Source: Terriglobales bacterium
Lineage (GTDB): Bacteria > Acidobacteriota > Terriglobia > Terriglobales > Acidobacteriaceae
Direction: 5' to 3'
DNA: 64,000 bases
Assembly (NCBI GenBank): GCA_035651655.1
Contig: DASRFG010000023.1
Span: 620,001 to 684,000, forward strand
Part shown: positions 4,115 to 53,653 of the stretch, piece after piece
How the letters are laid out: each line of letters begins with the position of its first letter
How positions within the stretch are numbered: position 1 is the stretch's first letter
Position numbers and translations under genes: made by a program
The notes under the pieces: model-generated
Told to the model about the DNA's origin: nothing
The model's database searches: none
What the model saw: only the letters and a program-made list of their open reading frames with translations

Positions 4115-4144
4115 ATTATAACAACGCGTTCCCCAAACCCTCAA
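4115..4144 (-). promoter_or_regulatory. Putative promoter upstream of tRNA-Phe
   Basis: Read on the minus strand there is TTGAGG (4144-4139), an 18-base spacer and a perfect TATAAT (4120-4115) within TTGTTATAAT. Transcription would start near 4108, about 110 bases ahead of tRNA-Phe. The remaining bases between 3999 and 4249 hold nothing else I recognise. Confidence 0.45.
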
Positions 4145-4249
4145 TCGGATGCTCACGGTTGGACGGGAAGGCAACGGCCGCAGGCAATGCAAGTCCGCCG
4201 ATCGTCGACTCACCCAGAAACCAGACCCTCACCCCTGCCCCACGACTTA

Positions 4250-5593
4250 CTAGCGGCAATTCATTTTTACTTCTCCGCCTGCTATCGTGGCCCAGCAATG
4301 ATTGGATCCAAACCAGTAGGCCAGCTCACGATAATCCGTGAAATCAAATATCGCGAGGTCGGCATCCTTGCTCGGCTCGATAGTTCCTTTTCGATCTTGA
4401 AGTCCCAGTGCGCACGCTCCATTGATGGTCGCGGAGCTGATTGCCTCGGCGGGCGACATTTTCAAATGAGTGCTCGCCAGGGACAGCACAAATGGCATGC
4501 TGGTGGTGGGTGAGGTTCCCGGGTTGTAGTCTGTGGCCAAAGCGACGGCTACTCCGTTATCAATCAACTTCCGCGCCGGCGGAAATCGGTCGAGACCAAG
4601 ATAGTAGTTAGCGCCCGGTACCAGAGTTGCAACGGTTTCTGATTGCGACAGCTCCTTGATGTCATTGTCGGCAACGAAATCCAGGTGATCCAGTGAGGCT
4701 GGCCGGTACCCAAGGAGAGGCGCGAGAGAGCACATGGTTAATTGGCAGACATGCGCGCGCACACCCAAACCGTTCCTGATGGCCGCTTTGAAAATCTGCT
4801 CCGCCTCCTCCACTGAAAATGCTCCGCGGTCGCGGAACACATCCACAAATTTCGCTAACTTCTCACGGGCGGCACGAGGCACCATTAGCTTACAGACATC
4901 CTGAACATACTTTTTTGAGTGGCCCTCGTATTCTCGCGGGACCACATGCGCACCTAAGAGAGTGGGGACCACGGTGCCCGGCCAACGATTGGCTGCGTCT
5001 CGAATCGCAAGTAGAGACTTCAGTTCTGCCTCGACGCTCAGCCCGTAGCCGGACTTTGCCTCGGCGGTCGTAGTGCCCTGCGCTCCCATTTCTTCAAATG
5101 CCGCGAGCACCTTGTGGGCAAGTTTCTGCCGCGTGGCATTCCGCACCCCTTCTACACTGGAGCGAATGCCGCCGCCTGCCTGAGAGATCGCCTCGTAGTC
5201 TGCTCCAGCAATGCGCTTTTCAAAATCCAGCAAGCGGGGGCCGGTAAAAACAGGATGAGTGTGCGAATCCACAAAACCCGGAATGACCACCTTCCCTGCG
5301 CAATCAATCTCCTCGACTCTGCGGCGATTTTTCTTCAGCCAAGGATCATAGAGTGCATCCTTTGTGTTTCCGACAGAGAGGATTTTTCCTGCGTCGCACA
5401 GAACGGCGGCATCTTCAATAATTCCAAGGTCGCGTAGTTCTTTCCCCCGGCGTGGGCCGGTGCTGCCTGAACGCAGCGTCAGCAATTGACGGATGTTGGT
5501 GAGCAGGACCGGCCCGAAATCGTTCCGGCGGCCACGAGCAGCGGGGCCCGCCGATCCTCGGCGCACACTATTTGTTCTGGAGACTTTGGGCAT
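4250..5593 (-). CDS. hutI: Imidazolonepropionase
   Basis: Catalyses the third step of histidine degradation, opening 4-imidazolone-5-propanoate to N-formimino-L-glutamate in the cytoplasm. The 447-residue protein shows the amidohydrolase-family zinc site (DSHTHPVFTGPR, HxH), the family stretch GGGIRSSVEGVRNA, a histidine in LLGAHVVPREY, HVCQLT, and the ATDYNPGTSPT motif typical of HutI. It is about 30-40 residues longer than most HutI because of an Arg/Gly-rich N-terminal extension; no internal ATG allows a shorter start. It lies 41 bases downstream of hutU in the same direction, so the two are probably cotranscribed. hutH and hutG are not in this window. Confidence 0.95.
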   Translation of the reverse strand: MPKVSRTNSVRRGSAGPAARGRRNDFGPVLLTNIRQLLTLRSGSTGPRRGKELRDLGIIEDAAVLCDAGKILSVGNTKDALYDPWLKKNRRRVEEIDCAGKVVIPGFVDSHTHPVFTGPRLLDFEKRIAGADYEAISQAGGGIRSSVEGVRNATRQKLAHKVLAAFEEMGAQGTTTAEAKSGYGLSVEAELKSLLAIRDAANRWPGTVVPTLLGAHVVPREYEGHSKKYVQDVCKLMVPRAAREKLAKFVDVFRDRGAFSVEEAEQIFKAAIRNGLGVRAHVCQLTMCSLAPLLGYRPASLDHLDFVADNDIKELSQSETVATLVPGANYYLGLDRFPPARKLIDNGVAVALATDYNPGTSPTTSMPFVLSLASTHLKMSPAEAISSATINGACALGLQDRKGTIEPSKDADLAIFDFTDYRELAYWFGSNHCWATIAGGEVKMNCR

Positions 5594-7375: not shown

Positions 7376-7783
7376 TCACCACGAACTATAGGGTGTGCCT
7401 TCGGAGCTCACCTGATTTGATCCGCTATGCACATCAATGATGCCGGGCTGCTGCTGGTCCACGCTGAGCAGCGTGTCTTCTTGATCAGTTGTCCATGTTT
7501 CTGTGGACGCAGTGAAGGGGTCTTTAGGAATGGACTTCAAATAACCTGCTGAGATCAGGTCTTCCAAAGACTGCGGTGCCTTTTGTTTGTCCAAGGTGTA
7601 CTGTGAAATCAGGCTGCGCAGCTGGAACAGGTCGTCTTTCAGCACCGTCTCCCGCGCGCGCAGAATTGAGGTCTTGTAAATCGGCGTCGCAATCGAATAC
7701 AGAATCAGCAGGATGCTGATCACCATCATCAACTCGATGAGGGTGAAGCCGCCGCTGCGCGATTTGGGTTTCCCGCTCACCAT
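7376..7783 (-). CDS. Type IV pilin-like / GspG-like pseudopilin
   Basis: A 135-residue prepilin-like protein. A 12-residue basic leader (MVSGKPKSRSGG) precedes the processing motif FTLIELMMVISILLIL: cleavage after Gly, Phe as first mature residue, Glu at position +5, then a hydrophobic helix. The C-terminal part (LISQYTLDKQKAPQSLEDLISAGYLKSIPKDPF) matches the major-pseudopilin (GspG) pattern of type II secretion systems. Its start overlaps the stop of the preceding pseudopilin gene (7777-7783), so the genes are translationally coupled in an operon headed by the secretin. A prepilin peptidase would be needed; none is seen in this window. Confidence 0.85.
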   Translation of the reverse strand: MVSGKPKSRSGGFTLIELMMVISILLILYSIATPIYKTSILRARETVLKDDLFQLRSLISQYTLDKQKAPQSLEDLISAGYLKSIPKDPFTASTETWTTDQEDTLLSVDQQQPGIIDVHSGSNQVSSEGTPYSSW

Positions 7784-8301
7784 TCTGAATACTTTGTCCC
7801 GTCCAGTGCTGTTCCCGGCGATTTCGTGAAAACATCAAACACGTTCTGCCCGCCCCAGGAGTCAGAAGTAGGGTCGTCCTGCATCGAGCGCAAACCCCAC
7901 TCGTTTTTACCGGTCATCGGGTCCACGGGGATGCGCCGCAAGAAACGCACTTTCTTGCCTCCCACGTCCACCCCATTCACCAGGGTCTCCAAATCGGGCG
8001 GATAACCTTCACTTCCCACTTTGATTTGAAATGCCGCGCGGTCAGCCGCGTCCTTATAGCGGTCAATGGCATCGCGTAATTCCCAGAGATCTCGGCGCAG
8101 TTCGCGCTCCCGTTCGCGCTGGATTTTCACCCGGACTAACGGAACCGCCAGCCCGGTGAGGATCGCGAGGATTGACATGGTGACAATCAACTCGACGAGC
8201 GTGAAGCCCCTCGACCTGCGCAACCGCACGTTTTCCAATGGAGGATATTTAGAGTGCACTGGTAGACGGCTAACGCCCACCAGGCGAACTTCTTTAATCA
8301 T
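7777..8301 (-). CDS. Type IV pilin-like / GspG-H-like pseudopilin
   Basis: A second prepilin-like protein of 174 residues from ATG 8301 (a GTG at 8313 would add four). The processing site RG|FTLVELIVTMSILAIL shows Glu at +5 and a long hydrophobic helix. The leader of about 32 residues is unusually long for a prepilin, so the true start may be further in, although no better codon is evident. The C-terminal half contains a GspG-like DPMTGKNEWGLRSMQDDP segment, predicting the loop that carries calcium in major pseudopilins (family knowledge, not tested). It sits between the secretin and the other pseudopilin, overlapping the latter by 7 bases. It probably forms part of a short pseudopilus or pilus tip. 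Confidence 0.82.
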   Translation of the reverse strand: MIKEVRLVGVSRLPVHSKYPPLENVRLRRSRGFTLVELIVTMSILAILTGLAVPLVRVKIQRERERELRRDLWELRDAIDRYKDAADRAAFQIKVGSEGYPPDLETLVNGVDVGGKKVRFLRRIPVDPMTGKNEWGLRSMQDDPTSDSWGGQNVFDVFTKSPGTALDGTKYSEW

Positions 8302-8345
8302 GAACTTATACACAACATTTTACTCGGATCTGCGGTCCCAAGGCG

Positions 8346-10673
8346 CTACTGCACGTTGATCGCGGCCTTTGAGCCACTCGCCTGGATCGGCTGCATGGCG
8401 GCATCGCGTAAACCGTCCCGCGTGATGCTGAGGGTAGAGCTGCCTGCGGCCTTGGCCAGGAACGTAATCGTAAATACATCTCCGTCGCCCGAGACTCCTC
8501 CCGTATTGGGAGGACGCGTCGCGGTAACCTGAAGAATCCCGGTGGCAGGATCATCCCGGTGCACCAGCGCCACCGCCTGGCCATCGCGCGACAGAAGGCG
8601 TCCATTAGAGACGTTCAGTACTTGCAGGGAATTCGGGTTGTAGGCAATTTGCACCGGAACCGAATAGATGTTTTGCCCACCCTTCAAATTTACGTTCACT
8701 GCAAAGGTAGAACCTACCGCCGGAGTGACGTTCTCTGGGTCGAAGCTGAGAGCCACTGCCGAACCAGGCGTCACGAATGGTTCAGCGGCGGCAGCCTGTG
8801 GCTGGGCCGGTGCCCCCGGCTGAGTAACAGCTGGCGGTTGGGAAGGCGCGGGTGCTGCGGAAGATGGTGACGTGGATTGCACTGGCGCTGCCGGCTGATT
8901 TACGTTAGGAGCCGCTTCGCTGGCTCGCCGTAGATCAATTGAGTTCGCCGTGCCCACATCCAACACGCGCTGATTCATCTCATCCACTACCTGGCCACGG
9001 ACCACGTGCGGTATCAGCACAAAAACGATTTCGCTATCACGCCGATCCTGAGTAGTTTGCGAAAACAGGTATTTTAGAATTGGAACTTGCGCCAGCCACG
9101 GATAGCCGGTCAACGCTTTTGTGTCCTGGTGTTCCAGGATGCCACCCAGGATGTTGACTTCTCCCTCTTTGAGCCTGATCTCGTGCTCGATCTTGCGTTG
9201 TCCGATTACCGGCTGGTTGATGCCGCCGATGTTCGTCGTCGAGTCCACTTCCGAGATATCCATTCCAACTTTCAAAGTGACCGACCGGTCGCCATGGATA
9301 TGCGGCGTGATATCAACGTTCACGCCGACATCGAGATATTGAAACTGCGTATTCACCAGCGGGTTTATGCCTACACCGCCAATACCGGGCTGAAACGAAC
9401 CCGTCGCCACCGGCACGCGCTGGCCAATCTTCAAACTGGCTTTTTGCCCATCAATTGCCCGAATCTGTGGATTTTGAATAAGTTTCGAGTCGCTGTCTGA
9501 AAACAATGCCGTCGCCGTGGCTTGCCCGATGTTTACCTGAAAGTCGGTGGCAGTCAGGTTGCCTATGCGATTGAGGTTTATGCTCCCTGAAGAACTGGCG
9601 TTGCTGCCGCTGCCGGCCCCCGAACCACTACCGCTGCCGCTGGCAGGGTTCACATTGCTTTGCAGCGTGACCGTACCGGTGGTGGGAGGATTAATTCCGA
9701 GGGTGCGCATTTTTTGCCGCGTGACCTGCATCACCACGACATCCACCACTACTTCCGGCTTGGACTTATCAATGTCCCCTATTAGCTTTTCAGCCAGCGC
9801 CAGCTGGTCCGGTGTGCCCCGCACGACGATGGCGTTCTGTGAGGGCAACTGCTGGATGCGACTGACCTCCAGGATAGTGCGCATCGCGTTGACCACGTCC
9901 TGCAATTCCGTAGGGGCGGACAAATTGGACAAATAAAAAGTCTTGATGACGCTCTGCTCTAATTCTTTGCGCTTGGCTGGATTGTCTGCGGCAACAAAGA
10001 TGGTGTTCGGAGTCACCGGCCGCCAGAAGGTTTTAGATTGCAAGGCGATAATTTCCAGGGCCTGTTGCAGGGTAACTCCATTCAACTCGACCCTGATCCG
10101 GCGCGAGGTGTAGTCGGGATCGAAGAGCACATTGATCCCTGCCAGCTTGCCCACCGTCTCATAAATCGTCTTTGTGTCTTCCGTAAGCTTCAGGGTGATG
10201 GGAACATTGGAAATGGGGGCAAGTTCGACCGGGCCGCCTGCCTGATCCAACATCTTTCTCAGTGGGCCCGGTGCGGCAGCTTGCGGCTTGGGCGGTGCCT
10301 CTACCTGCTGCATTAATTGGCGGGTGCGTGCGGCCTCTTGCTGAGCGATGAAGCTGGACGTATCTATTGCCGCCGCAGCCTCGAACTCCGCCAGCGCTTC
10401 CTGTAACTTGCCGGCCTCGCGTAGTAGTTGTCCGCGATGTACTTTGGAGGCCGCTGCGAGGAAACGGGTGCGTTCGTAAGCCGCGCGATAGCGTACCTCT
10501 TTCGGCCTCAAATCGTAGGCGTGCTTATAGTTTTCGTAGGCAAGCTCATAGTTCTGCCGGGCTTCAGCGTCTTTGCCCTTGTTATAAAAGGACTTCGCCT
10601 GGTCCGCCAATGCCGGAACAGAGACGGCGATTAAGAGGCATAGTACTCCGAAGGTTTGGATCGACCTGGCCAT
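8346..10673 (-). CDS. Secretin (PilQ/GspD family) with N-terminal TPR region and C-terminal cohesin-like domain
   Basis: An outer-membrane secretin ring subunit, 775 residues from ATG 10673. That start gives a clear signal peptide (MARSIQTFGVLCLLIAVSVPALA); codons at 10760 and 10769 sit at or before the likely transcription start. Domain order: two TPR-like helix pairs (about 25-120), an STN/N0-like segment (NVPITLKLTEDTKTIYETVGKLAGINVLFDP, about 170-240), an N1-type domain (TFYLSNLSAPTELQDVVNAMR), then the secretin core (about 400-600) with the VPVATGSFQ segment and the EVNILGGILEHQ motif. After an Ala/Pro/Gln-rich linker, residues about 640-775 form a cohesin-type beta domain (VALSFDPENVTPAVGSTFAVNV... 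IYSVPVQIAYNPNSLQVLNV). The cohesin-like tail is the odd part; such domains bind dockerins elsewhere. Two pseudopilin genes follow. Confidence 0.93.
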   Translation of the reverse strand: MARSIQTFGVLCLLIAVSVPALADQAKSFYNKGKDAEARQNYELAYENYKHAYDLRPKEVRYRAAYERTRFLAAASKVHRGQLLREAGKLQEALAEFEAAAAIDTSSFIAQQEAARTRQLMQQVEAPPKPQAAAPGPLRKMLDQAGGPVELAPISNVPITLKLTEDTKTIYETVGKLAGINVLFDPDYTSRRIRVELNGVTLQQALEIIALQSKTFWRPVTPNTIFVAADNPAKRKELEQSVIKTFYLSNLSAPTELQDVVNAMRTILEVSRIQQLPSQNAIVVRGTPDQLALAEKLIGDIDKSKPEVVVDVVVMQVTRQKMRTLGINPPTTGTVTLQSNVNPASGSGSGSGAGSGSNASSSGSINLNRIGNLTATDFQVNIGQATATALFSDSDSKLIQNPQIRAIDGQKASLKIGQRVPVATGSFQPGIGGVGINPLVNTQFQYLDVGVNVDITPHIHGDRSVTLKVGMDISEVDSTTNIGGINQPVIGQRKIEHEIRLKEGEVNILGGILEHQDTKALTGYPWLAQVPILKYLFSQTTQDRRDSEIVFVLIPHVVRGQVVDEMNQRVLDVGTANSIDLRRASEAAPNVNQPAAPVQSTSPSSAAPAPSQPPAVTQPGAPAQPQAAAAEPFVTPGSAVALSFDPENVTPAVGSTFAVNVNLKGGQNIYSVPVQIAYNPNSLQVLNVSNGRLLSRDGQAVALVHRDDPATGILQVTATRPPNTGGVSGDGDVFTITFLAKAAGSSTLSITRDGLRDAAMQPIQASGSKAAINVQ

Positions 10674-42588: not shown

Positions 42589-42616
42589 CACTATGGGCGG
42601 TAGGGGTATTCAAAAG

Positions 42617-43162
42617 GTGTCCGAACCGACGCTGTCGCGGTGCAGAAGAGCGTCAAGCGCGGGTGAACACCATGGATTTTCGCTACCCGAGCTGCTCATC
42701 GTGGTAGCCCTGATTTTAGTTCTTACCGCCATCGTGGTACCTAGTTTCTTTCGGTCGCGAATGGCGGCCAATGAGGCATCTGCAGTGGGTTCCATTCGAA
42801 GCATCAACACGGCGGAAGCAACTTACCAGACAGCATACCCCAGTACCGGTTATCCGGCTACGCTGAGCAGTCTTGGAGGCGCGGCGCCTTGTTCGGCTTC
42901 GGCGGCCACTGCTTGCCTCCTTGATAACGCCTTGGCCTCCGGTACAAGAACGGGCTACACATTTGTGGCGGTAGGGGCGAATCCCATTGGAACCGCGAAC
43001 ACCACCTACTCAGTTGGAGCTGCGCCACTTGCCTGTGACAAAACCGGGGTGCGGCGCTTCTGCTCGTTGCAGGACCAGGTGATCCGAGTGGATAACAATG
43101 CGGGCCAAAGCACCACTCCACCGGATGCACCCAGTTGCTCGGCATTAGCTGCATTGCCCTGA
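42617..43162 (+). CDS. Type IV pilin-like protein (PilA/PulG type)
   Basis: A prepilin-like protein of 181 residues from the GTG at 42617, which has AGGGG 10 bases upstream; an ATG at 42593 lacks a ribosome site and lies upstream of the predicted sigma-54 start point. The processing site HHG|FSLPELLIVVALILVLTAIVVPSFF has Phe at +1, Glu at +5 and a hydrophobic helix of about 20 residues. The rest shows IRSINTAEATYQTAYPSTGYPATLSSLGG, typical of pilin and fimbrial subunits of Acidobacteriota and myxobacteria, and three or four Cys that could form disulfides. It is probably a structural subunit of the type IV machinery encoded at 46856-53653. A terminator follows. Confidence 0.87.
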   Translation: MSEPTLSRCRRASSAGEHHGFSLPELLIVVALILVLTAIVVPSFFRSRMAANEASAVGSIRSINTAEATYQTAYPSTGYPATLSSLGGAAPCSASAATACLLDNALASGTRTGYTFVAVGANPIGTANTTYSVGAAPLACDKTGVRRFCSLQDQVIRVDNNAGQSTTPPDAPSCSALAALP

Positions 43163-46074: not shown

Positions 46075-46764
46075 ATGAGCTTCCCTTGGGCATTGATCAT
46101 TCTGCTCATCGCCCCTGCTTTCAACCCAGTAGCAGCGAAGCAACAACCATCCTCTTCGGTGTTGCCCCCGATCCACGAGATTGCCAAGGCAGTAGACCAG
46201 CACTACAACCAGCTTCGAACCTTAGTCGCAGAGTTTACTGAGATTTATCAGGGCAACGGCATGTCCCGGGAAGAATCCGGCACATTGTGGCTGAAGAAGC
46301 CCGGCAAGATGCGTTGGGAGTACCGCCAGCCCAGGCAGAAACTGTTCATTTCTGACGCAAAAACTGCCTGGTTTTACGTTCCTGGAGAGAGACAGGCCCG
46401 TAAGCTGCCAGTGAAGAAACTGGAAGACTTGCGATCGCCTATCGGTTACCTGCTAGGCAAAACAAAGCTGGAAAGGGAGTTCGCTGGGCTTTCGCTGGCG
46501 CCGGATGTCTCCCCGATTCACTCGGAAGATTTGGTGCTTCGCGGCGTTCCCAAGTTTATGGAGGGCGTAAGCCAGGTGCTGCTGGAAGTTACTCCCGACC
46601 GGAAAATCAACCGGATCGTGGTGGACCTGGAAGATGGTTCGACTACGGAGTATCGCTTGGGCGAGCAAAAGGAAAACATTGTCGTCGGAGATCAGCAGTT
46701 TCGTTTTTCGCTTCCACCGGATGTAGAAGTCATTCAGGGCGACCTGGGAGAAAATGCAGATTAG
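46075..46764 (+). CDS. lolA: Outer-membrane lipoprotein carrier protein LolA
   Basis: A 229-residue periplasmic chaperone that ferries lipoproteins from the Lol ABC exporter to the outer membrane. A signal peptide (MSFPWALIILLIAPAFNPVAA) leads to the LolA fold: IAKAVDQHYNQLRTLVAEFTEIYQGNGMSREESGTLWLKKPGKMRWEYRQPRQKLFISDAKTAWFYVPGE. Many LolA proteins have this WLKKPGxMRWEY pattern. The start has no strong ribosome site. It follows an ABC transporter unit; LolCDE-like genes are not present, so the neighbour exporter is not the classical Lol system. Confidence 0.93.
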   Translation: MSFPWALIILLIAPAFNPVAAKQQPSSSVLPPIHEIAKAVDQHYNQLRTLVAEFTEIYQGNGMSREESGTLWLKKPGKMRWEYRQPRQKLFISDAKTAWFYVPGERQARKLPVKKLEDLRSPIGYLLGKTKLEREFAGLSLAPDVSPIHSEDLVLRGVPKFMEGVSQVLLEVTPDRKINRIVVDLEDGSTTEYRLGEQKENIVVGDQQFRFSLPPDVEVIQGDLGENAD

Positions 46765-46855: not shown

Positions 46856-48067
46856 ATGTCGGAATTCCTTATCAAAATGGCCGATGAACGCGGCCATTTG
46901 CTGCAGCAAGTCGAGACCGGGTACTCCGAGTCCGAGGTCCGTGACCGCTACGCCCAACAGGGCTACCTGGTGTACTGGGTCAAGCCCCGCGGAATCCTGG
47001 CGGGCGGAGACGTGTCGTTGTTTCAACGACGCAAGATCAAGCTCGAACAGTTCGTCATTTTTAACCAGCAATTTGTGACCTTGATCAAGGCTGGATTGCC
47101 CATCTTGAACTCTCTGGATCTGCTGATACGACGGCAGCGAAACGGCTACTTTAAAACGCTCCTGGAGAACGTGCGCGATCGTGTGAAGAGCGGTGAATTA
47201 CTCTCCAATTCCTTCGCTGCTCAGGCAGTTTTTCCGAAGCTCTATACCACCACGTTGCTGGCAGGTGAAAAGAGCGGAAATTTGGAAGAAGTTCTGAACC
47301 GCTACATTGCTTTTCAGCGGCTGACCATTTCGTTTCGCAAGAAGTTGAAAGCATCACTCGTCTACCCGACATTGCTTGTGGTCATGGTAGTGAGCATGCT
47401 GAGCTTCCTGGTCACATATGTGGTGCCTCGCTTCGGTGAGCTCTACCAGAGCGTAGATGCTCAACTGCCGGCCATGACCATGTTCATGGTGGCTTTGGGA
47501 ACGGGCGCAAGAAAATATTTGTTTCTCTTTATAGGATCGGCCATTGTGCTGGCCGTCCTGCTTTGGCGGTGGAAAAACTCCGAGCGCGGTGCGGACCAGA
47601 TTGACAGGTTTCTGCTGCATGTCCCCATTGCAGGAGCAGTCTTATTGAAATATCAGGTCGCGAACTTCGCGCGTATTCTGGCCACTTTGCTCACCGGTGG
47701 CTTGCCACTCGTTCCAGCCCTTGAAACTGCCGGCGAGTCGGTTGGCAGCAAGCATATCGCCAATGGCATTGTAGAGGCGGCCCGGCGGGTCCGCGAAGGT
47801 CTTCCGCTGGCGCGCAGCCTGGAAGAACGGAAGATATTTCCCGATCTGGCCGTCGAAATGATCGAGGTGGGCGAATCCACTGGAGCATTGCCTGCCATGC
47901 TTGCCTCAGTAGCCGAGTTCTACGAAGAAGATGTGCAGGCGGGGTTGACGGCAGCGATGTCGCTTATTGAGCCGGTCATCTTGATCTTTATGGGAACAAT
48001 CGTCGCTTTTGTATTGATTTCATTGTATTTGCCCATTTTCACACTGGGAGCAGGGGGTTTTCACTGA
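46856..48067 (+). CDS. Type IV pilus / type II secretion platform protein (PilC/GspF family)
   Basis: A 403-residue inner-membrane platform protein with two T2SSF domains. The first contains QFVTLIKAGLPILNSLDLLIRRQRNGYFKTLLENVRDRVKSGELLSNSF, and the second LATLLTGGLPLVPALETAGESVGSKHIANGIVEAARRVREGLPLARSLEERKIFPDLAVEMIEVGESTGAL. Three hydrophobic segments (about 170-190, 220-240 and 370-395) give the usual topology. It is followed 71 bases later by the ATPase gene; the order platform-then-ATPase is unusual but works with PilB to drive pilus assembly or secretion. Confidence 0.93.
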   Translation: MSEFLIKMADERGHLLQQVETGYSESEVRDRYAQQGYLVYWVKPRGILAGGDVSLFQRRKIKLEQFVIFNQQFVTLIKAGLPILNSLDLLIRRQRNGYFKTLLENVRDRVKSGELLSNSFAAQAVFPKLYTTTLLAGEKSGNLEEVLNRYIAFQRLTISFRKKLKASLVYPTLLVVMVVSMLSFLVTYVVPRFGELYQSVDAQLPAMTMFMVALGTGARKYLFLFIGSAIVLAVLLWRWKNSERGADQIDRFLLHVPIAGAVLLKYQVANFARILATLLTGGLPLVPALETAGESVGSKHIANGIVEAARRVREGLPLARSLEERKIFPDLAVEMIEVGESTGALPAMLASVAEFYEEDVQAGLTAAMSLIEPVILIFMGTIVAFVLISLYLPIFTLGAGGFH

Positions 48068-48138: not shown

Positions 48139-49797
48139 ATGGCAGAAAAACCACTATTCACAAATGGAGGTAACGGCGGGCGCCTTGCCACCGACATCCA
48201 AGGCAGCGAGGAGACTCGGGCGCGCGATGTGGCGCGTCGTTATCGTTGTGAGTACGTGGACTTGCGCGATTTCCAGTTGCACCATGATCTCTTTAAGAAA
48301 ATCCCTGTCGACCTGATGTTCCGCTACAACTTCATCCCCTTGGACGAAACTGCCGAGGGGCGGTTGGCTATTGCCATCGCCGATCCCAGCCAGCTGATGA
48401 TGATTGATGAGATCAGCTTGCTGTTGGACAAACGAATCATTACCAAGGTAGCCACGCTCTCCCAGATCAATGACATTCTGAAAAAGACGGAGCAGTCTCA
48501 GCGTGTCCTGGAAGAGGCCAGTGAAGGCTTTGCGCTCGACGTTATTCGCGAGGACGAGAGCGGCGACGAAACTATATCCATTGAGCGGCTAACTGCCGAG
48601 GGCGACATTAGCCCCATCATCCGGCTGGTGGACACCACTATCTTCACGGCGTTGCAACGGCGTGCCAGCGATATCCACGTCGAAACCCGCGATGACTCGG
48701 TAGTGATCAAGTACCGCATTGATGGTGTACTGCAACAAGCCATGAACCCCATCGCCAGAGAACACCACACCACTATCATCTCGCGGATCAAGGTCATGAG
48801 CGAGTTGGACATCGCCGAGCGTCGCGTGCCCCAGGACGGCCGTTTTCGCGTGAAATACAACGGACGGCAGATTGACTTCCGGGTTTCCATCATGCCTTCC
48901 ATACACGGTGAAGATGCCGTGTTGCGCGTGCTGGACAAAGAGTCCATGAGCGAGAAGTTCAAGACCCTGGTGCTCGACGTGGTGGGCTTTAGTGAGGACG
49001 ACCTGAAGAAGTTTCGCCGTTACATCAAAGAACCGTACGGCATGGTGCTGGTCACCGGACCGACCGGCAGCGGCAAGACAACCACCCTCTATGCGGCCGT
49101 GAACGAAATCAAGACCGACGAAGACAAGATCATCACCATTGAAGATCCGGTGGAATATCAAATCCGCGGCATCACTCAGATTCCGGTAAACGAGAAGAAA
49201 GGCCTGACCTTCGCCCGCGGGCTGCGCTCGATTTTGCGCCACGACCCGGACAAGATCATGGTGGGCGAAATCCGCGACACAGAAACTGCGCAGATCGCCA
49301 TCCAATCAGCGCTTACCGGCCACCTCGTGTTTACCACGGTACACGCCAACAATGTTGTGGACGTAATCGGCCGATTTTTGAACATGGGTGTAGAGGCCTA
49401 CAACTTCGTTTCGGCGCTGAATTGCATTTTGGCGCAGCGGCTAGTGCGTCTGATCTGCGACAGTTGTCGAAAAGAAGTCCGCTACTCAGACGATGAACTG
49501 GAAGGCAGTGGCCTGAACCCGCAAGAGTGGCGGGGCGTGATTTTCTACGAAGGCGAGGGCTGCATCGAGTGCTCCGGCACCGGCTTCCGCGGCCGCACTG
49601 CCATCCACGAACTGCTGGACCTGAGTGACCGTATCCGTGAAATGATTTTGGCCAAGAAGCCTTCCTCAGAAATCCGCCGAGCAGCCCGTGAGGAGGGCAT
49701 GCGCTTCTTACGTGAATCGGCCCTCGACAAAGTACGGTCCGGCCTCAGCACGCTGAAGGAGATCAATAAAGTCACGTTTATCGAGACCACACGCTGA
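48139..49797 (+). CDS. Type IV pilus / type II secretion assembly ATPase (PilB/GspE)
   Basis: A 552-residue hexameric ATPase. The N-terminal domain (about 20-150, MshEN/T2SSE_N type) precedes the core with Walker A GPTGSGKTTTLYA, the Asp box ITIEDPVEY, Walker B IMVGEIRDTETAQIAIQSALTGHLVFTTVH and a zinc module of four Cys (CDSCRKEV...CIECSGTGFRGRT), all typical of PilB/GspE. It provides energy for assembly of the pseudopilus or pilus. A GGTGGAG ribosome site precedes the ATG at 48139. No PilT-like retraction ATPase is seen in this window. Confidence 0.95.
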   Translation: MAEKPLFTNGGNGGRLATDIQGSEETRARDVARRYRCEYVDLRDFQLHHDLFKKIPVDLMFRYNFIPLDETAEGRLAIAIADPSQLMMIDEISLLLDKRIITKVATLSQINDILKKTEQSQRVLEEASEGFALDVIREDESGDETISIERLTAEGDISPIIRLVDTTIFTALQRRASDIHVETRDDSVVIKYRIDGVLQQAMNPIAREHHTTIISRIKVMSELDIAERRVPQDGRFRVKYNGRQIDFRVSIMPSIHGEDAVLRVLDKESMSEKFKTLVLDVVGFSEDDLKKFRRYIKEPYGMVLVTGPTGSGKTTTLYAAVNEIKTDEDKIITIEDPVEYQIRGITQIPVNEKKGLTFARGLRSILRHDPDKIMVGEIRDTETAQIAIQSALTGHLVFTTVHANNVVDVIGRFLNMGVEAYNFVSALNCILAQRLVRLICDSCRKEVRYSDDELEGSGLNPQEWRGVIFYEGEGCIECSGTGFRGRTAIHELLDLSDRIREMILAKKPSSEIRRAAREEGMRFLRESALDKVRSGLSTLKEINKVTFIETTR

Positions 49798-49913: not shown

Positions 49914-50804
49914 ATGGGCAGTAGTTCGAGAGGAAATCGGCCACGCATGGCATGCGAGATTTCGGTGGATCGCATCGTCGCCGGCCGCGCCGCCGAACGC
50001 GGTGACACTCTCGATGTGTACACTTCACGCGAACTACCCGAAGGCAGTCTCGCTCCGGACCTGACGGAGGCCAACGTGCTTCGCCGTGAGGTCCTGCGAG
50101 ACAGCATCGCGGACGCGCTTCAATCCATTGGCGAGCGGTCGCGAGATGTAATCGCTGTCCTGCCAGATTCTTCCGCTCGGGTGGTGCTGCTGGACTTTGA
50201 AACTTTGCCGGCCAAGCCCCAGGAGGCAGAAGCCGTTGTCCGTTTTCGGCTCAAGAAGTCTCTTCCTTTCGATGTGGAGCATGCCAAAGTTTCTTACCAG
50301 GCACACGTGAGCGGCAAAGGCGTGAGAGTAATTGCCGCCGTCGCGCTCACCAGCGTGATCCAGGAATATGAATCTGCTTTTCGCGAGGCCGGCTACAACC
50401 CCGGGGTCATGCTGCCCTCCATGCTTGCCGCCCTTGGCGCTGTGGACGCAGACAAGCCGACCATGGTAGTGAAAGTTGACGCCTTTACCACCAGCATCGC
50501 CCTCATGGACGGCTCACAATTGCTGCTCTTTCGTACCCTGGAAAATAGCCGTGGGCTGAATCTCACTGGTGAACAGCTGGCGGAAGAGGTTTATCCCTCG
50601 GTAGTATTTTTCCAGGATACTTATCACATGAATATTGAGCGCATCCTGGTGGCGGGATTACCTGATTCCGAGTCTTTCAACGTGCTGCAAAACCAAACTG
50701 GAATTGCAGTGGAAGAATTGGTAAGCGCGCGGCGGGTCGCCAATGTAAACGGGAACCTTCCACGCTGGCGTCTGGCCGGCGTCCTGGGGGCACTAGCATC
50801 GTAG
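49914..50804 (+). CDS. PilM-like inner-membrane-associated actin-fold protein
   Basis: A 296-residue cytoplasmic protein of the PilM/GspL-cytoplasmic type. It shows the ALQSIGERSRDVIAVLPDSSARVVLLDFETLPAKPQEAEAVVRFRLKKSLPFDVEHAKVSYQ segment expected of PilM-like proteins, and later KVDAFTTSIALMDGSQLLLFRTL, the actin-like phosphate region, although more diverged than canonical PilM. It lies immediately upstream of a PilN-like gene (TAG then ATG with no gap), so they are coupled. Recognition comes from position plus pattern; the family is less clear than for the neighbours. Confidence 0.75.
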   Translation: MGSSSRGNRPRMACEISVDRIVAGRAAERGDTLDVYTSRELPEGSLAPDLTEANVLRREVLRDSIADALQSIGERSRDVIAVLPDSSARVVLLDFETLPAKPQEAEAVVRFRLKKSLPFDVEHAKVSYQAHVSGKGVRVIAAVALTSVIQEYESAFREAGYNPGVMLPSMLAALGAVDADKPTMVVKVDAFTTSIALMDGSQLLLFRTLENSRGLNLTGEQLAEEVYPSVVFFQDTYHMNIERILVAGLPDSESFNVLQNQTGIAVEELVSARRVANVNGNLPRWRLAGVLGALAS

Positions 50805-51452
50805 ATGCGAATTGACATAAATCTTTCGAGTCAGCCCTACGAAGACGCGCGACGGTTCTTCCGTCAATGGGTATTGATTCTTACGGCGGCTTCGTTGCTC
50901 ACCGCAGCGTTGGTGTTTGGGGCCCTGGTGCGACTGAAGGAATGGCGCGTCGAACAGCGCCGTATTCACGACCTGCAGGCGCAGATTGCCCAGGGCAACG
51001 GCGAAATTGCGCGCGCCGAAGCCTTCCTCAACCAAGGTGAGAACCGTGACACACGTGACAAGTCCCAGCTTTTAAACGAGTTGATTGCACGCAAGGCTTT
51101 CTCCTGGACGCAGGTATTTTCTGACTTGGAACGGCTTATGCCGCCCCGTCTACACGTGCTTTCCATTCATCCGGAACTTACCGCGCAAAATGAGCTGGAG
51201 CTCAGACTGGTGGTTGCTGGCGAATCGAGGGAAAGGGCTTTGGCGCTTCTGCGGAAAATGGAACAATCCCCACGTTTTCGCCAGCCCCAGATTCTGCAGG
51301 AGAGCAGTGGTGAGGGGCACACCCCGGGCGACAATGTGGAGTTCGCCATCAGTGCGCTTTACGTCCCCCAGGTGCGAACGTTATTGCATTCCTCCCCGGA
51401 GGCATCGGCAATGAACGGCAAGCCAAGGGAGGATTGGGGAGGCGGCCTGTGA
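50805..51452 (+). CDS. PilN-like inner-membrane protein
   Basis: A 215-residue membrane protein beginning MRIDINLSSQPYEDARRFFRQWVLILTAA, as PilN proteins do: a short cytoplasmic IN-L-type segment that docks into PilM, one membrane helix (about 22-43), a coiled coil (LKEWRVEQRRIHDLQAQIAQGNGEIARAEAF) and a small periplasmic domain (PPRLHVLSIHPELTAQNELELRLVVAGESRERALALLRKMEQSPRFRQPQI). It is coupled to PilM and overlaps the PilO gene by 4 bases. Confidence 0.85.
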   Translation: MRIDINLSSQPYEDARRFFRQWVLILTAASLLTAALVFGALVRLKEWRVEQRRIHDLQAQIAQGNGEIARAEAFLNQGENRDTRDKSQLLNELIARKAFSWTQVFSDLERLMPPRLHVLSIHPELTAQNELELRLVVAGESRERALALLRKMEQSPRFRQPQILQESSGEGHTPGDNVEFAISALYVPQVRTLLHSSPEASAMNGKPREDWGGGL

Positions 51453-51982
51453 TCGGTAACGTCCGCCAAACTCGGCAACGATTGATCATTGTGCTCGGAG
51501 TTTTGCTCTTCGTGGACCTGGCTGCGGGAGTCGTATTACTTTCTCCGGTTGGCCGCTCGCGGCAAGAGGAGATCCAGTCGCTGCAACTCCAGCTCCGGGC
51601 CAAGATGCAGCAGGTTCAGCCACTGCGTGGCCTGGACAAAAAAGTGGTAGTCGCCAAAGAGGAGATTGCGGACTTCTATCGCGACCGTCTGCCAGGCCAG
51701 TACTCGGATATTTCAGATCGGGTGGGCAAGATGGCGGCACAGAGTAACATCAAAATTGTGCAGGCGAAATACAGCCCACAGGACGTAGAAGCGAGCGGAC
51801 TGCGTCCCGTGCTCATTGAAGCTGGACTGTCCGGTGACTACGTTCACATAGTGAAGTTCATCAATTCACTGGAACGTGACAAGACCTTATTCATCGTGAA
51901 CAGCGTGGCCTTGGGCGATGCCCAGGGAGGCACGGTGAAGCTGCAACTGAAAATGGAAACTTATCTCAAGAGTGGAGCCTAG
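51449..51982 (+). CDS. PilO-like inner-membrane protein
   Basis: A 177-residue protein from GTG 51449, which overlaps the pilN stop by four bases (GTGA) and has GGAGGCGG upstream; a TTG at 51434 is a worse start. One membrane helix (LIIVLGVLLFVDLAAGVVLLS, about 10-30) is followed by a coiled coil (QEEIQSLQLQLRAKMQQVQPL) and a periplasmic ferredoxin-like domain (VQAKYSPQDVEASGLRPVLIEAGLSGDYVHIVKFINSLERDKTLFIVNSVAL), as in PilO. With PilN it forms the alignment complex linking ATPase, platform and secretin. Confidence 0.85.
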   Translation: MIGNVRQTRQRLIIVLGVLLFVDLAAGVVLLSPVGRSRQEEIQSLQLQLRAKMQQVQPLRGLDKKVVVAKEEIADFYRDRLPGQYSDISDRVGKMAAQSNIKIVQAKYSPQDVEASGLRPVLIEAGLSGDYVHIVKFINSLERDKTLFIVNSVALGDAQGGTVKLQLKMETYLKSGA

Positions 51983-52606
51983 TTGAGAGTCGGAGCCGAG
52001 AATCGCAGTAAAGTGATTGCAGCCGGGGGACTAATGCTGCTGGCTGTAGTGCTGTTCGCTCGCATGATATTGGTGGATTCCGGCCCCAGCGCGTCAGCTC
52101 CGTTGCCATCCGTTGACGGCACTGCGAACCCGCGCGGAACGAAGACCACTCCTCGGCGGCTCTCTTCCACGTCCAAGACAATGGCAAATGCCAAGAGACA
52201 GGCTCCTGCCATGAGCCTGGATCCACGGCTGCGCTTGGATCTGCTGAGAAGCAGCGAAGAAGTCACCTATGCGGGTACGGGCCGCAATATCTTTCTCGCG
52301 CAGGAAGAGGCGCCCATTCCCAAGCCGGTGGAATCAGGAAAGGTTTCGGCCCCGCAGCCGCCGCCTGGACCGCCGCCGCCCCCTCCCATTGATTTGAAAT
52401 TTTTTGGATTTGCCAGCCGTTCGGGTGAACGCAGGAGAGTTTTTCTTTCTGAGGGAGAAGACGTATTTATCGCCGGTGAGGGAGACATCGTTAACCGGCG
52501 CTACAAGTTGGCTCGGATCAGCCCCAGCTCGGTGGAGGTTGAAGATGTCCTCAATCCCAACCGGCATCAGAGTATCCCGTTGACTCAAAATCCACAGGGA
52601 CGCTAG
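51983..52606 (+). CDS. PilP/GspC-like inner-membrane protein
   Basis: A 207-residue protein whose TTG start at 51983 directly follows the PilO stop. It has one N-terminal membrane segment (IAAGGLMLLAVVLFARMIL), a Pro/Ser linker, and a C-terminal domain LKFFGFASRSGERRRVFLSEGEDVFIAGEGDIVNRRYKLARISPSSVEVEDVLN that resembles the homology-region (HR) beta domain of GspC and PilP. This domain contacts the secretin N-terminal domain. Unlike PilP it does not begin as a lipoprotein, so GspC-like topology is more likely. Confidence 0.78.
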   Translation: MRVGAENRSKVIAAGGLMLLAVVLFARMILVDSGPSASAPLPSVDGTANPRGTKTTPRRLSSTSKTMANAKRQAPAMSLDPRLRLDLLRSSEEVTYAGTGRNIFLAQEEAPIPKPVESGKVSAPQPPPGPPPPPPIDLKFFGFASRSGERRRVFLSEGEDVFIAGEGDIVNRRYKLARISPSSVEVEDVLNPNRHQSIPLTQNPQGR

Positions 52607-52624: not shown

Positions 52625-53653
52625 ATGCTGGTCAGCAGACAATTTCGCCGGCAACCGAGGGCGGGGAGCAAACACGCCGAAGACGGCTATTTGCTGATGG
52701 TACTGCTGCTCTTCATCACCCTTCTGGTGATAGCCAGCGCCGCGGTGGCCCCGCAGCTGGCGATGCAAATTCGCCGAGACCGCGAAGAGGAGATGATCCA
52801 CCGCGCGGTGCAGTATGCGCGGGCCATCAAGCGCTTCTACAGAAAAAATAACCGGTACCCCACCCGCATCGAGGAACTGGAAAACACTAATAATTTTCGT
52901 TTTCTGCGCAAGCGCTACAAAGACCCCATCACCGGCAAGGAGTTTCGCCTGCTCCGTTTCGGCGACGTCAAAATGTTTCCTCAAGGAGTTGCCGGACTGG
53001 CGCCAGCCGGAGTTAATGCGCAGGCCCTGGGCGGAGTGGCGGGAGTGGCACAGGCACAAGTGGGAGCGCCCGCGGGTTTTCCCGGGAATGCCGGAGGAAT
53101 GAATTCTGGTTTCGGAAGTCCCATTGCTCCTGCGAATCCAGGCCTCGGCACACCGCCCGAGCAAGCCGTAGCACCGCAACCGGAAGCCGAGCAGGACCCT
53201 CGCGCCGCTGGCGGCGCCAGTGCCAACTCAGATGAACCGCAGGAGATGAAGGGGCCCATCTCCGGTCAGCCGCCAAATGCTGCCGGACCTCAAAATGCGA
53301 TAGACGGACAGAATCCGGCAAATCAGGTTTTTGGCGGAGGCCCTGTGGTCGGAGTAGCCAGTACCAGCCATAAGGTAAGTGTTCGGGAGTTTAACAAGAA
53401 GCGCCACTACAATGAATGGCAGTTCATTTACGACCCGAGCTCAGACCGCGGGGGCCTGCTTAATGGCCCGGTCCAACCCGGCGGGACTGGTGTGGGAATT
53501 GCCGGCGCAAATCAGAATCTGCAGAACCAGGGCATGCAGAATCCCGCTGGACAAAACCCCAATGCGAATCCGGGAATGCAAAACCCTGGAGGGATGACCG
53601 GAAATCCTCAGATGCCCGGCCCAGGTCAACCCCAGATGCCACCTGAGCAGTAA
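52625..53653 (+). CDS. Atypical pseudopilin-like protein with Asn/Gln/Pro/Gly-rich tail
   Basis: A 342-residue protein with one N-terminal hydrophobic segment (LLMVLLLFITLLVIASAAVAP, about 23-43), then IRRDREEEMIHRAVQYARAIKRFYRKNNRYPTRIEELENTNNFRFLRKRYKDPITGKEFRLL, the globular GspG-like region where the DPITGKEF phrase matches type II pseudopilins. The Glu at +5 and the usual G|F processing motif are missing, so it may be anchored but unprocessed. Beyond residue 130 the sequence is low-complexity (rich in Gly, Ala, Pro, Gln, Asn and Met). It is the last gene of the pilMNOP-type operon. Confidence 0.72.
   Translation: MLVSRQFRRQPRAGSKHAEDGYLLMVLLLFITLLVIASAAVAPQLAMQIRRDREEEMIHRAVQYARAIKRFYRKNNRYPTRIEELENTNNFRFLRKRYKDPITGKEFRLLRFGDVKMFPQGVAGLAPAGVNAQALGGVAGVAQAQVGAPAGFPGNAGGMNSGFGSPIAPANPGLGTPPEQAVAPQPEAEQDPRAAGGASANSDEPQEMKGPISGQPPNAAGPQNAIDGQNPANQVFGGGPVVGVASTSHKVSVREFNKKRHYNEWQFIYDPSSDRGGLLNGPVQPGGTGVGIAGANQNLQNQGMQNPAGQNPNANPGMQNPGGMTGNPQMPGPGQPQMPPEQ

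Follow-up and report, generated by a model that had tools for sequence, protein, structure and literature searches.

What does a cohesin domain do at the end of an outer-membrane pore? The question is raised by a secretin gene in a 64,000-nucleotide stretch of DNA from a Terriglobales bacterium of the Acidobacteriota (GCA_035651655.1, contig DASRFG010000023.1, positions 620,001 to 684,000), which is referred to here as the window. Secretins are known for their N-domains and core, often together with an S-domain. The system in the window appears to be a type II-like machine, split over two loci, with a TPR head and a cohesin tail on its secretin, and in the family of this bacterium the cohesin is retained without dockerin. 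An initial annotation had proposed an order of TPR, secretin, linker and cohesin-like domain, without a strand. The gene lies on the minus strand, where a frame of 775 codons runs from an ATG at 10673 to a stop at 8346; an in-frame TTG upstream of this ATG would give an alternative product of 807 amino acids. Pfam and the domains of an AlphaFold model, scored by the predicted local distance difference test (pLDDT), bear out this architecture:

8346..10673, minus strand: TPR-N0-N1-secretin-linker-cohesin protein, 775 amino acids (open reading frame, Pfam, AlphaFold model)
10299..10598, minus strand: TPR-like helical domain, about residues 26-125, behind a Sec-type signal peptide (model helices, TPR matches)
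9771..10199, minus strand: N0 and N1 domains, residues 159-301 (PF03958 at 244-305; model)
8997..9755, minus strand: secretin core, about residues 307-559 (PF00263 at 389-559; model strands)
8763..8969, minus strand: disordered Ala/Pro/Gln-rich linker, residues 569-637 (pLDDT <50 over 569-637)
8346..8753, minus strand: predicted cohesin-fold tail, residues 641-775 plus stop (PF00963 4.2e-13; pLDDT 92.6; Z 17.6 to CipA 1aoh)

With a PF00263 core (Secretin, 1.6e-38) and N-domains (Secretin_N, 2.1e-7) present, the protein is a member of the secretin superfamily. Its best NCBIfam match is the GspD model TIGR02517 at 148.4 bits, which is below the equivalog cut-off of 351, and it also stays below the cut-offs of PilQ (TIGR02515, 117 vs 284 bits) and MshL (TIGR02519, 109 vs 250 bits). 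The Cohesin family matched residues 647-769 with 50.1 bits against a cut-off of 24.1. All TPR matches in the window protein were below their own cut-offs (the best, TPR_2, 22.9 against 27). We aligned the window protein with 23 members picked from cohesin-bearing matches (alignment A1). TPR_2 was found at E<=0.001 in 22 of these 24 proteins, the window protein included, and Secretin, Secretin_N and Cohesin were matched in all 24, in the case of Cohesin by construction.

The full AlphaFold model (68 sequences) had a mean pLDDT of 75 and a predicted template modelling score (pTM) of 0.36. Helices were placed at about residues 25-125, N0 at 159-229, N1 at 242-301 and the core at 307-559, followed by the linker with a pLDDT of about 33 and the cohesin with about 95. 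Flexible joints between the domains would account for the low pTM, and the model makes no prediction of their relative arrangement. Like GspD of type II secretion, the protein has the N0/N1-secretin order, but it adds the N-terminal TPR and the C-terminal cohesin. Behind the core, the model holds only a four-residue helix and then the disordered region, with a short conserved stretch around G574-T575. The S-domain is described as the pilotin-binding part of the usual secretin (PMC3542185, PMC6532946). No folded S-domain is present in the model, but this does not show that the protein lacks one, because S-domains can be natively disordered without their pilotin (PMC3542185).

When solved structures were searched with a sequence profile of the tail, the matches were weak (best 2xdh at 0.051), and its fold was therefore compared. 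Modelled alone, the tail reached a pLDDT of 92.6 and a pTM of 0.84. The best Foldseek match was 2xdh, a non-cellulosomal cohesin of Archaeoglobus fulgidus (5.4e-10), and VIA-align gave Z scores of 17.6 to the CipA cohesin 1aoh (2.2 Å over 135 residues, 21% identity) and 17.1 to 2xdh. Among the 50 rows listed per table, the titles named cohesins, cohesin-dockerin complexes or scaffoldins with two exceptions: 3kcp (interacting cellulosome components) and, in the VIA-align table, 2o4e (a protein-protein interaction module of a clostridial glycoside hydrolase). The predicted tail has the nine-strand jelly-roll of cohesins. Its matches are far above the level of a generic sandwich, so that the model predicts a true cohesin fold, and an ordinary Ig-like repeat, which was also considered, was ruled out by the Foldseek and VIA-align results. 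The cohesin-like C-terminal domain of the initial annotation is thus supported by both profile and predicted structure. The fold is that of CipA (1aoh/1ohz) and of 2xdh from Archaeoglobus; here it is found on a secretin.

Within the tail, conservation is uneven. Many near-invariant positions among 68 closer relatives fall in strand 3 (S671, P673, Q675) and in the loops at about 690-701 and 720-731, and R720, P721, G729 and G731 have zero entropy. Overall the core is better conserved than the tail (mean pairwise identity 0.38 vs 0.28). The distances of tail and core correlate (Spearman 0.42), with a value as high in 1 of 2000 permutations.

The initial annotation had suggested that the tail could hold dockerin-bearing partners and had called for a genome-wide dockerin search. 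In the genome of this bacterium (4.07 Mb, 99.8% complete), Dockerin_1 (PF00404) had no match at E<=1, other dockerin families not being searched, and the single cohesin at E<=1 was the tail of the window secretin itself. PF00963 matched in all 38 sampled genomes of the same family, this one included. By eye, the cohesin was placed inside the secretin match in 36 of them; in G210 it is in the same frame (L041), and for G139 its position is not listed. Dockerin_1 was found in one of the 38. We then considered 347 genomes of the phylum, in which presence of the secretin family was defined as a match to the A1 profile at E<=1e-90. A cohesin match at E<=0.001 was present in 197 genomes, not all on secretins, and a dockerin in 129. 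Dockerins were found in 103 of the 288 genomes with the secretin family and in 26 of the 59 without (Fisher p=0.24). Since the cohesin is present in 38 of 38 and the dockerin in one of 38 genomes, with no association across the phylum, the cohesin is kept without dockerin in the window's family. Dockerin-binding cohesins such as CipA are among the closest folds and dockerins do exist in the phylum, as would suit a classical pairing that keeps exoproteins with a dockerin at the pore by way of the tail. The lack of Dockerin_1 in the own genome, its rarity in the family and the missing association make this pairing very unlikely, and the dockerin link of the initial annotation was therefore not sustained.

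Cohesins and dockerins occur in other arrangements elsewhere in the phylum. In some genomes (G157, G105, G299, G291) cohesins form arrays within frames that are about 1,200-3,600 amino acids long, and in two cases one frame combines cohesins with a dockerin (G323:C3:152977-153993 and G331:C9:84313-85329). Others have 12-18 dockerin matches per genome (at most 18 scored) and 0-2 cohesins (G016, G030, G043, G068 (family f17), G056, G079 (f35)); these are dockerin-rich lineages without an evident scaffold.

To which machine does the secretin belong? Two pseudopilin genes lie downstream of it, as do their homologues in most related loci; these counts are based on the 72 of 80 named loci that have more than 1.5 kb downstream of the secretin. 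No platform gene was detected by tblastn at 1e-8 in the fetched flanks (<=9 kb) of any of the 80 named loci. A set of platform genes is present elsewhere in the window, on the plus strand, and rules out that the window secretin is an orphan. The two loci hold:

7777..8313, minus strand: pseudopilin 1, GspG-like, N_methyl (PF07963 9.7e-9; homologue downstream in 66 of 72 loci)
7376..7783, minus strand: pseudopilin 2, GspG-like, N_methyl (PF07963 1.1e-6; homologue downstream in 68 of 72 loci)
46856..48067, plus strand: inner-membrane platform protein GspF/PilC (PF00482 2.1e-54; best matches are the GspF of relatives' cohesin-secretin loci)
48139..49797, plus strand: assembly ATPase GspE/PilB with MshEN domain (PF00437 2.6e-132)
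49914..50804, plus strand: PilM-like protein (weak: TIGR01175 8e-7, below cut-off; PF11104 0.0048; BLAST to the operon PilM)
50805..51452, plus strand: PilN-like protein (PF05137 9.3e-6, over cut-off)
51434..51982, plus strand: PilO/GspM-like protein (weak: T2SSM_b 0.0023, GspM 1.9e-5, below cut-off; BLAST to the operon PilO)
51983..52606, plus strand: protein in the PilP position, no Pfam family (BLAST 2.5e-10 to the gene immediately before the secretin in L050)
52625..53653, plus strand: long pseudopilin-like protein, no Pfam match (BLAST 3.8e-13 to the third pilin of the L050 operon)

The secretin with its pseudopilins (7.4-10.7 kb) and the platform set (46.9-53.7 kb) are 36 kb apart. In deeper relatives, the platform genes and the secretin form one operon. 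Of 40 loci that were fetched (L036-L075), eight have the order GspF-GspE-PilM-PilN-PilO-x-secretin (L049, L050, L051, L056, L057, L058, L062 and L074), and in L049, L050 and L062 two or three pseudopilins follow the secretin. The identity of the window ATPase is 66% to its counterpart in the L049 operon vs 40% to the other full-length PilB/GspE ATPase of its own genome (L076). Judged from this gene order, the machine seems to be split into two loci in the lineage of the window, and we infer that both loci contribute to a single machine. ATPase, inner-membrane platform, pilin and secretin are described among the key components of the type IV filament superfamily (PMC6668835), and over its two loci the window holds the complete set of ATPase, platform, pseudopilin and secretin. 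Prepilin peptidase (PF01478) had three matches over cut-off in the own genome.

By size and order of their genes, further loci of this genome are a PilB/PilT/PilC-like one, a PilM/N/O-like one with a secretin of 900 amino acids (L037) and a Tad-like one. The window system resembles type IVa pili in having PilM/N/O-type platform proteins in the operon; it differs in the low PilQ score of its secretin and in that the genome has the separate locus L037. The Pul (Oxp) type II system of Geobacter/Pelobacter, which secretes the multicopper oxidase OmpB (PMC3543383) and is called 'atypical' in a cited title, is likewise a type II system with several pseudopilins and may resemble the window system more closely than this; PMC7894505 has nothing on the Oxp secretin.

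Several neighbouring genes were observed in addition. The own genome has a second TPR-secretin of 606 amino acids without cohesin tail (L036:8218-10038, contig C25), with no machine gene labelled in the surrounding 18 kb. In the window, a gene for a LolA-type lipoprotein carrier (46075-46764, plus strand; PF03548 2.6e-18) lies directly before GspF, a suggestive neighbour given that the secretin family has lipoprotein members, and a separate PilA-like prepilin (42593-43162, plus strand; N_methyl 4.5e-5) lies about 3.7 kb upstream of GspF. A protein of 230-311 amino acids is encoded just before GspF in four loci (cluster 10; L049:14098-14847), and its L049 copy matches Secretin_N weakly. After the pseudopilins of L049, a gene at 4117-5061 encodes a possible cohesin partner, which starts like a lipoprotein and contains Invasin_D3, Big_1-like and PKD domains.

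How might such a pore reach the outer membrane? By eye, a lipobox precedes the TPR in 15 of the 24 A1 members and in 28 of 30 N-termini from loci L180-L209; by regular expression the numbers are 13 of 24 (with the window's own match discounted) and 25 of 30. Outside the window's class 43 of 47 proteins have a lipobox by eye, inside it none of 7. PilF has a TPR fold. This outer-membrane lipoprotein is reportedly required for PilQ multimerisation, and the liposecretin HxcQ is said, in the title of a study, to be self-piloted via an N-terminal lipid anchor. Because of the lipobox-TPR head and these two precedents, the head suggests a built-in pilotin, and the pore may pilot itself. As in HxcQ, most relatives outside the window's class start with a lipobox and could take a lipoprotein route to the outer membrane; they differ from it in the TPR domain behind the lipid, and the window protein differs in having no lipobox. 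The logic of a TPR lipoprotein is shared with PilF, but here the TPR part is fused to the secretin. In Tad systems, TadD is described as needed for assembly of the secretin (PMC6668835).

The family is widespread in the phylum. At E<=1e-20 the A1 profile matched in 339 of the 347 genomes, although the weaker matches (about 1e-40) may be other secretins, and at E<=1e-90 in 288. A member at this stricter threshold was present in all 36 hand-picked genomes without a PF00963 match. When a profile of the A1 tail was applied to loci from 30 of these, it matched 23 at E<=1e-6 in a small search space and was marginal in L191 (0.019). No cohesin tail was found in six loci (L200, L201, L203, L205, L206 and L207) in any of the six frames, and their secretin frames close at a stop within the locus. 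In a midpoint-rooted tree of 62 cores, some forks of which are weak, the tail-less proteins are scattered among tailed ones (L201; L203, L205 and L207 together; L206; L200; the Janthinobacterium protein L212), which reads as repeated loss of the tail. The window protein clusters with others from its class. In the genome collection, the best 80 of 512 relatives all had titles that place them in the Acidobacteriota (Acidobacteriales, Acidobacteriaceae, Terriglobia, Terriglobales, Sulfotelmatobacter and plain Acidobacteria/Acidobacteriota), a listing that says nothing on other phyla; wider taxonomic coverage came from the sampled phylum and a plasmid collection.

When plasmid records were searched by tblastn, 752 matched, none with 80% query cover, and the best matches were Burkholderiales secretins covered from TPR to core. 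Pfam Cohesin was over cut-off in the proteins of Eleftheria terrae (WP_301260250.1, 2.3e-9) and Burkholderia ambifaria (WP_229083879.1, 6.3e-8) and in a frame of Paraburkholderia largidicola (9.2e-7), the tail of which breaks off into another frame; the secretin of Janthinobacterium lividum had no Pfam Cohesin. With the B. ambifaria tail as query, seven plasmid records matched, its own included. The operons of Eleftheria and B. ambifaria consist of GspG, GspF, GspE, three or four small proteins, the secretin and three pseudopilins, while that of Janthinobacterium has GspF first and GspG last. These plasmid secretins share the TPR-STN-secretin-cohesin order and the set of surrounding genes with the window system, but their operon is in one piece, the secretins are 26-28% identical to that of the window and the Janthinobacterium copy lacks the cohesin. 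In the latter plasmid, an M4 metallopeptidase gene lies directly upstream of the operon (L212:854-3421), a candidate for secreted cargo. An architecture confined to the Acidobacteriota is ruled out by the Burkholderiales copies; on these sequences it occurs in at least two phyla and is therefore older or more mobile than a single phylum. The subclass of Acidobacteriota pores proposed by the initial annotation is recognisable across the sampled phylum, and it was drawn too narrowly in its taxonomic name. Among the open-licence papers listed, titles and abstract beginnings yielded nothing on a cohesin-bearing secretin.

We favour, with moderate confidence, the following explanation as a whole. 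The window secretin would be the outer-membrane pore of a type II-secretion-like/type IV-filament machine encoded in two loci, one with the secretin and two pseudopilins and one with GspF, GspE, the PilM/N/O-like proteins, 'PilP' and the long pilin. The N-terminal TPR, which in most relatives from other classes would be lipidated at the lipobox, would bring the self-piloting pore to the outer membrane. Solved secretins are described as entering this membrane with only the beta-lip and an amphipathic helical loop, the remainder being in the periplasm (PMC6532946), and the tail should thus start on the periplasmic side. There, the cohesin would leave the core on a flexible tether of about 70 residues, and the cohesins of the pore could form a ring of docking modules. 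This ring would hold a non-dockerin protein, either a component of the machine or envelope or cargo awaiting the pseudopilus.

Several observations weigh against this explanation. No partner of the cohesin tail was identified, and the tail is missing from six of 30 sampled loci and from the Janthinobacterium protein, which makes it dispensable for the pore. The window protein itself was judged to have no lipobox; the GVLC flagged by the pattern is inside a hydrophobic stretch and was discounted by eye. A disordered, pilotin-binding S-domain may be present in the window secretin. The PilM, PilN and PilO calls are weak, those of PilM and PilO resting on position and BLAST, and the dockerin searches covered Dockerin_1 alone. 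The dockerin-binding plateau of cohesins is described as the 8-3-6-5 face (PMC8063739); in a crude strand-alternation test this face was no more conserved than the opposite one (entropy 1.03 vs 1.15, p=0.97), which gives no sign of a conserved docking plateau.

Among other roles of the tail, an envelope anchor partly overlaps with the docking ring, and we regard it as a minor possibility. The tail would then steady the pore by binding to peptidoglycan, to lipid or to a lipoprotein of the outer membrane, as AMIN domains may do in PilQ. In favour, neither AMIN nor LysM is among the 11 Pfam families listed for the window secretin, and an Ig/PKD-domain gene lies behind the L049 pilins. However, the cluster of this gene is present in 4 of 40 loci, and characterised cohesins bind proteins. 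That the tail is a structural spacer or self-association module without outside partner is doubtful: its repeated loss and its greater divergence relative to the core would be expected of a spacer, but the near-invariant strand 3 and loops suggest more than that. Cohesins are often found on cell-surface scaffolds, and the linker is long, as would suit a tail threaded through the membrane and displayed as adhesin or enzyme dock. The bulk of solved secretins is periplasmic (PMC6532946), which makes such a display outside the cell very unlikely.

A bolder form of the docking ring can be imagined, although we consider it unlikely. The ring, with one cohesin per secretin subunit, would be a periplasmic cargo-sorting collar. 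Its target would be a tag unrelated to dockerin, borne by folded exoproteins or by the tip of the pseudopilus, and the collar would pass these on to the self-piloting pore. If so, cohesin recognition would here be an ancient part of protein secretion and not of cellulosomes. Independently of this, a secretin family with a TPR head, and with a cohesin tail in most sampled members, is present in 288 of 347 genomes of the phylum and in Burkholderiales, and keeps the cohesin fold without dockerin. With the tail as bait and the natural tail-less copies as controls, it offers a handle on partner and cargo recruitment, an open question in type II secretion. The family further points to what may be encoded by operon genes now annotated as 'hypothetical protein' or 'cohesin domain-containing protein'; the Eleftheria terrae member is already labelled by its cohesin in the database.

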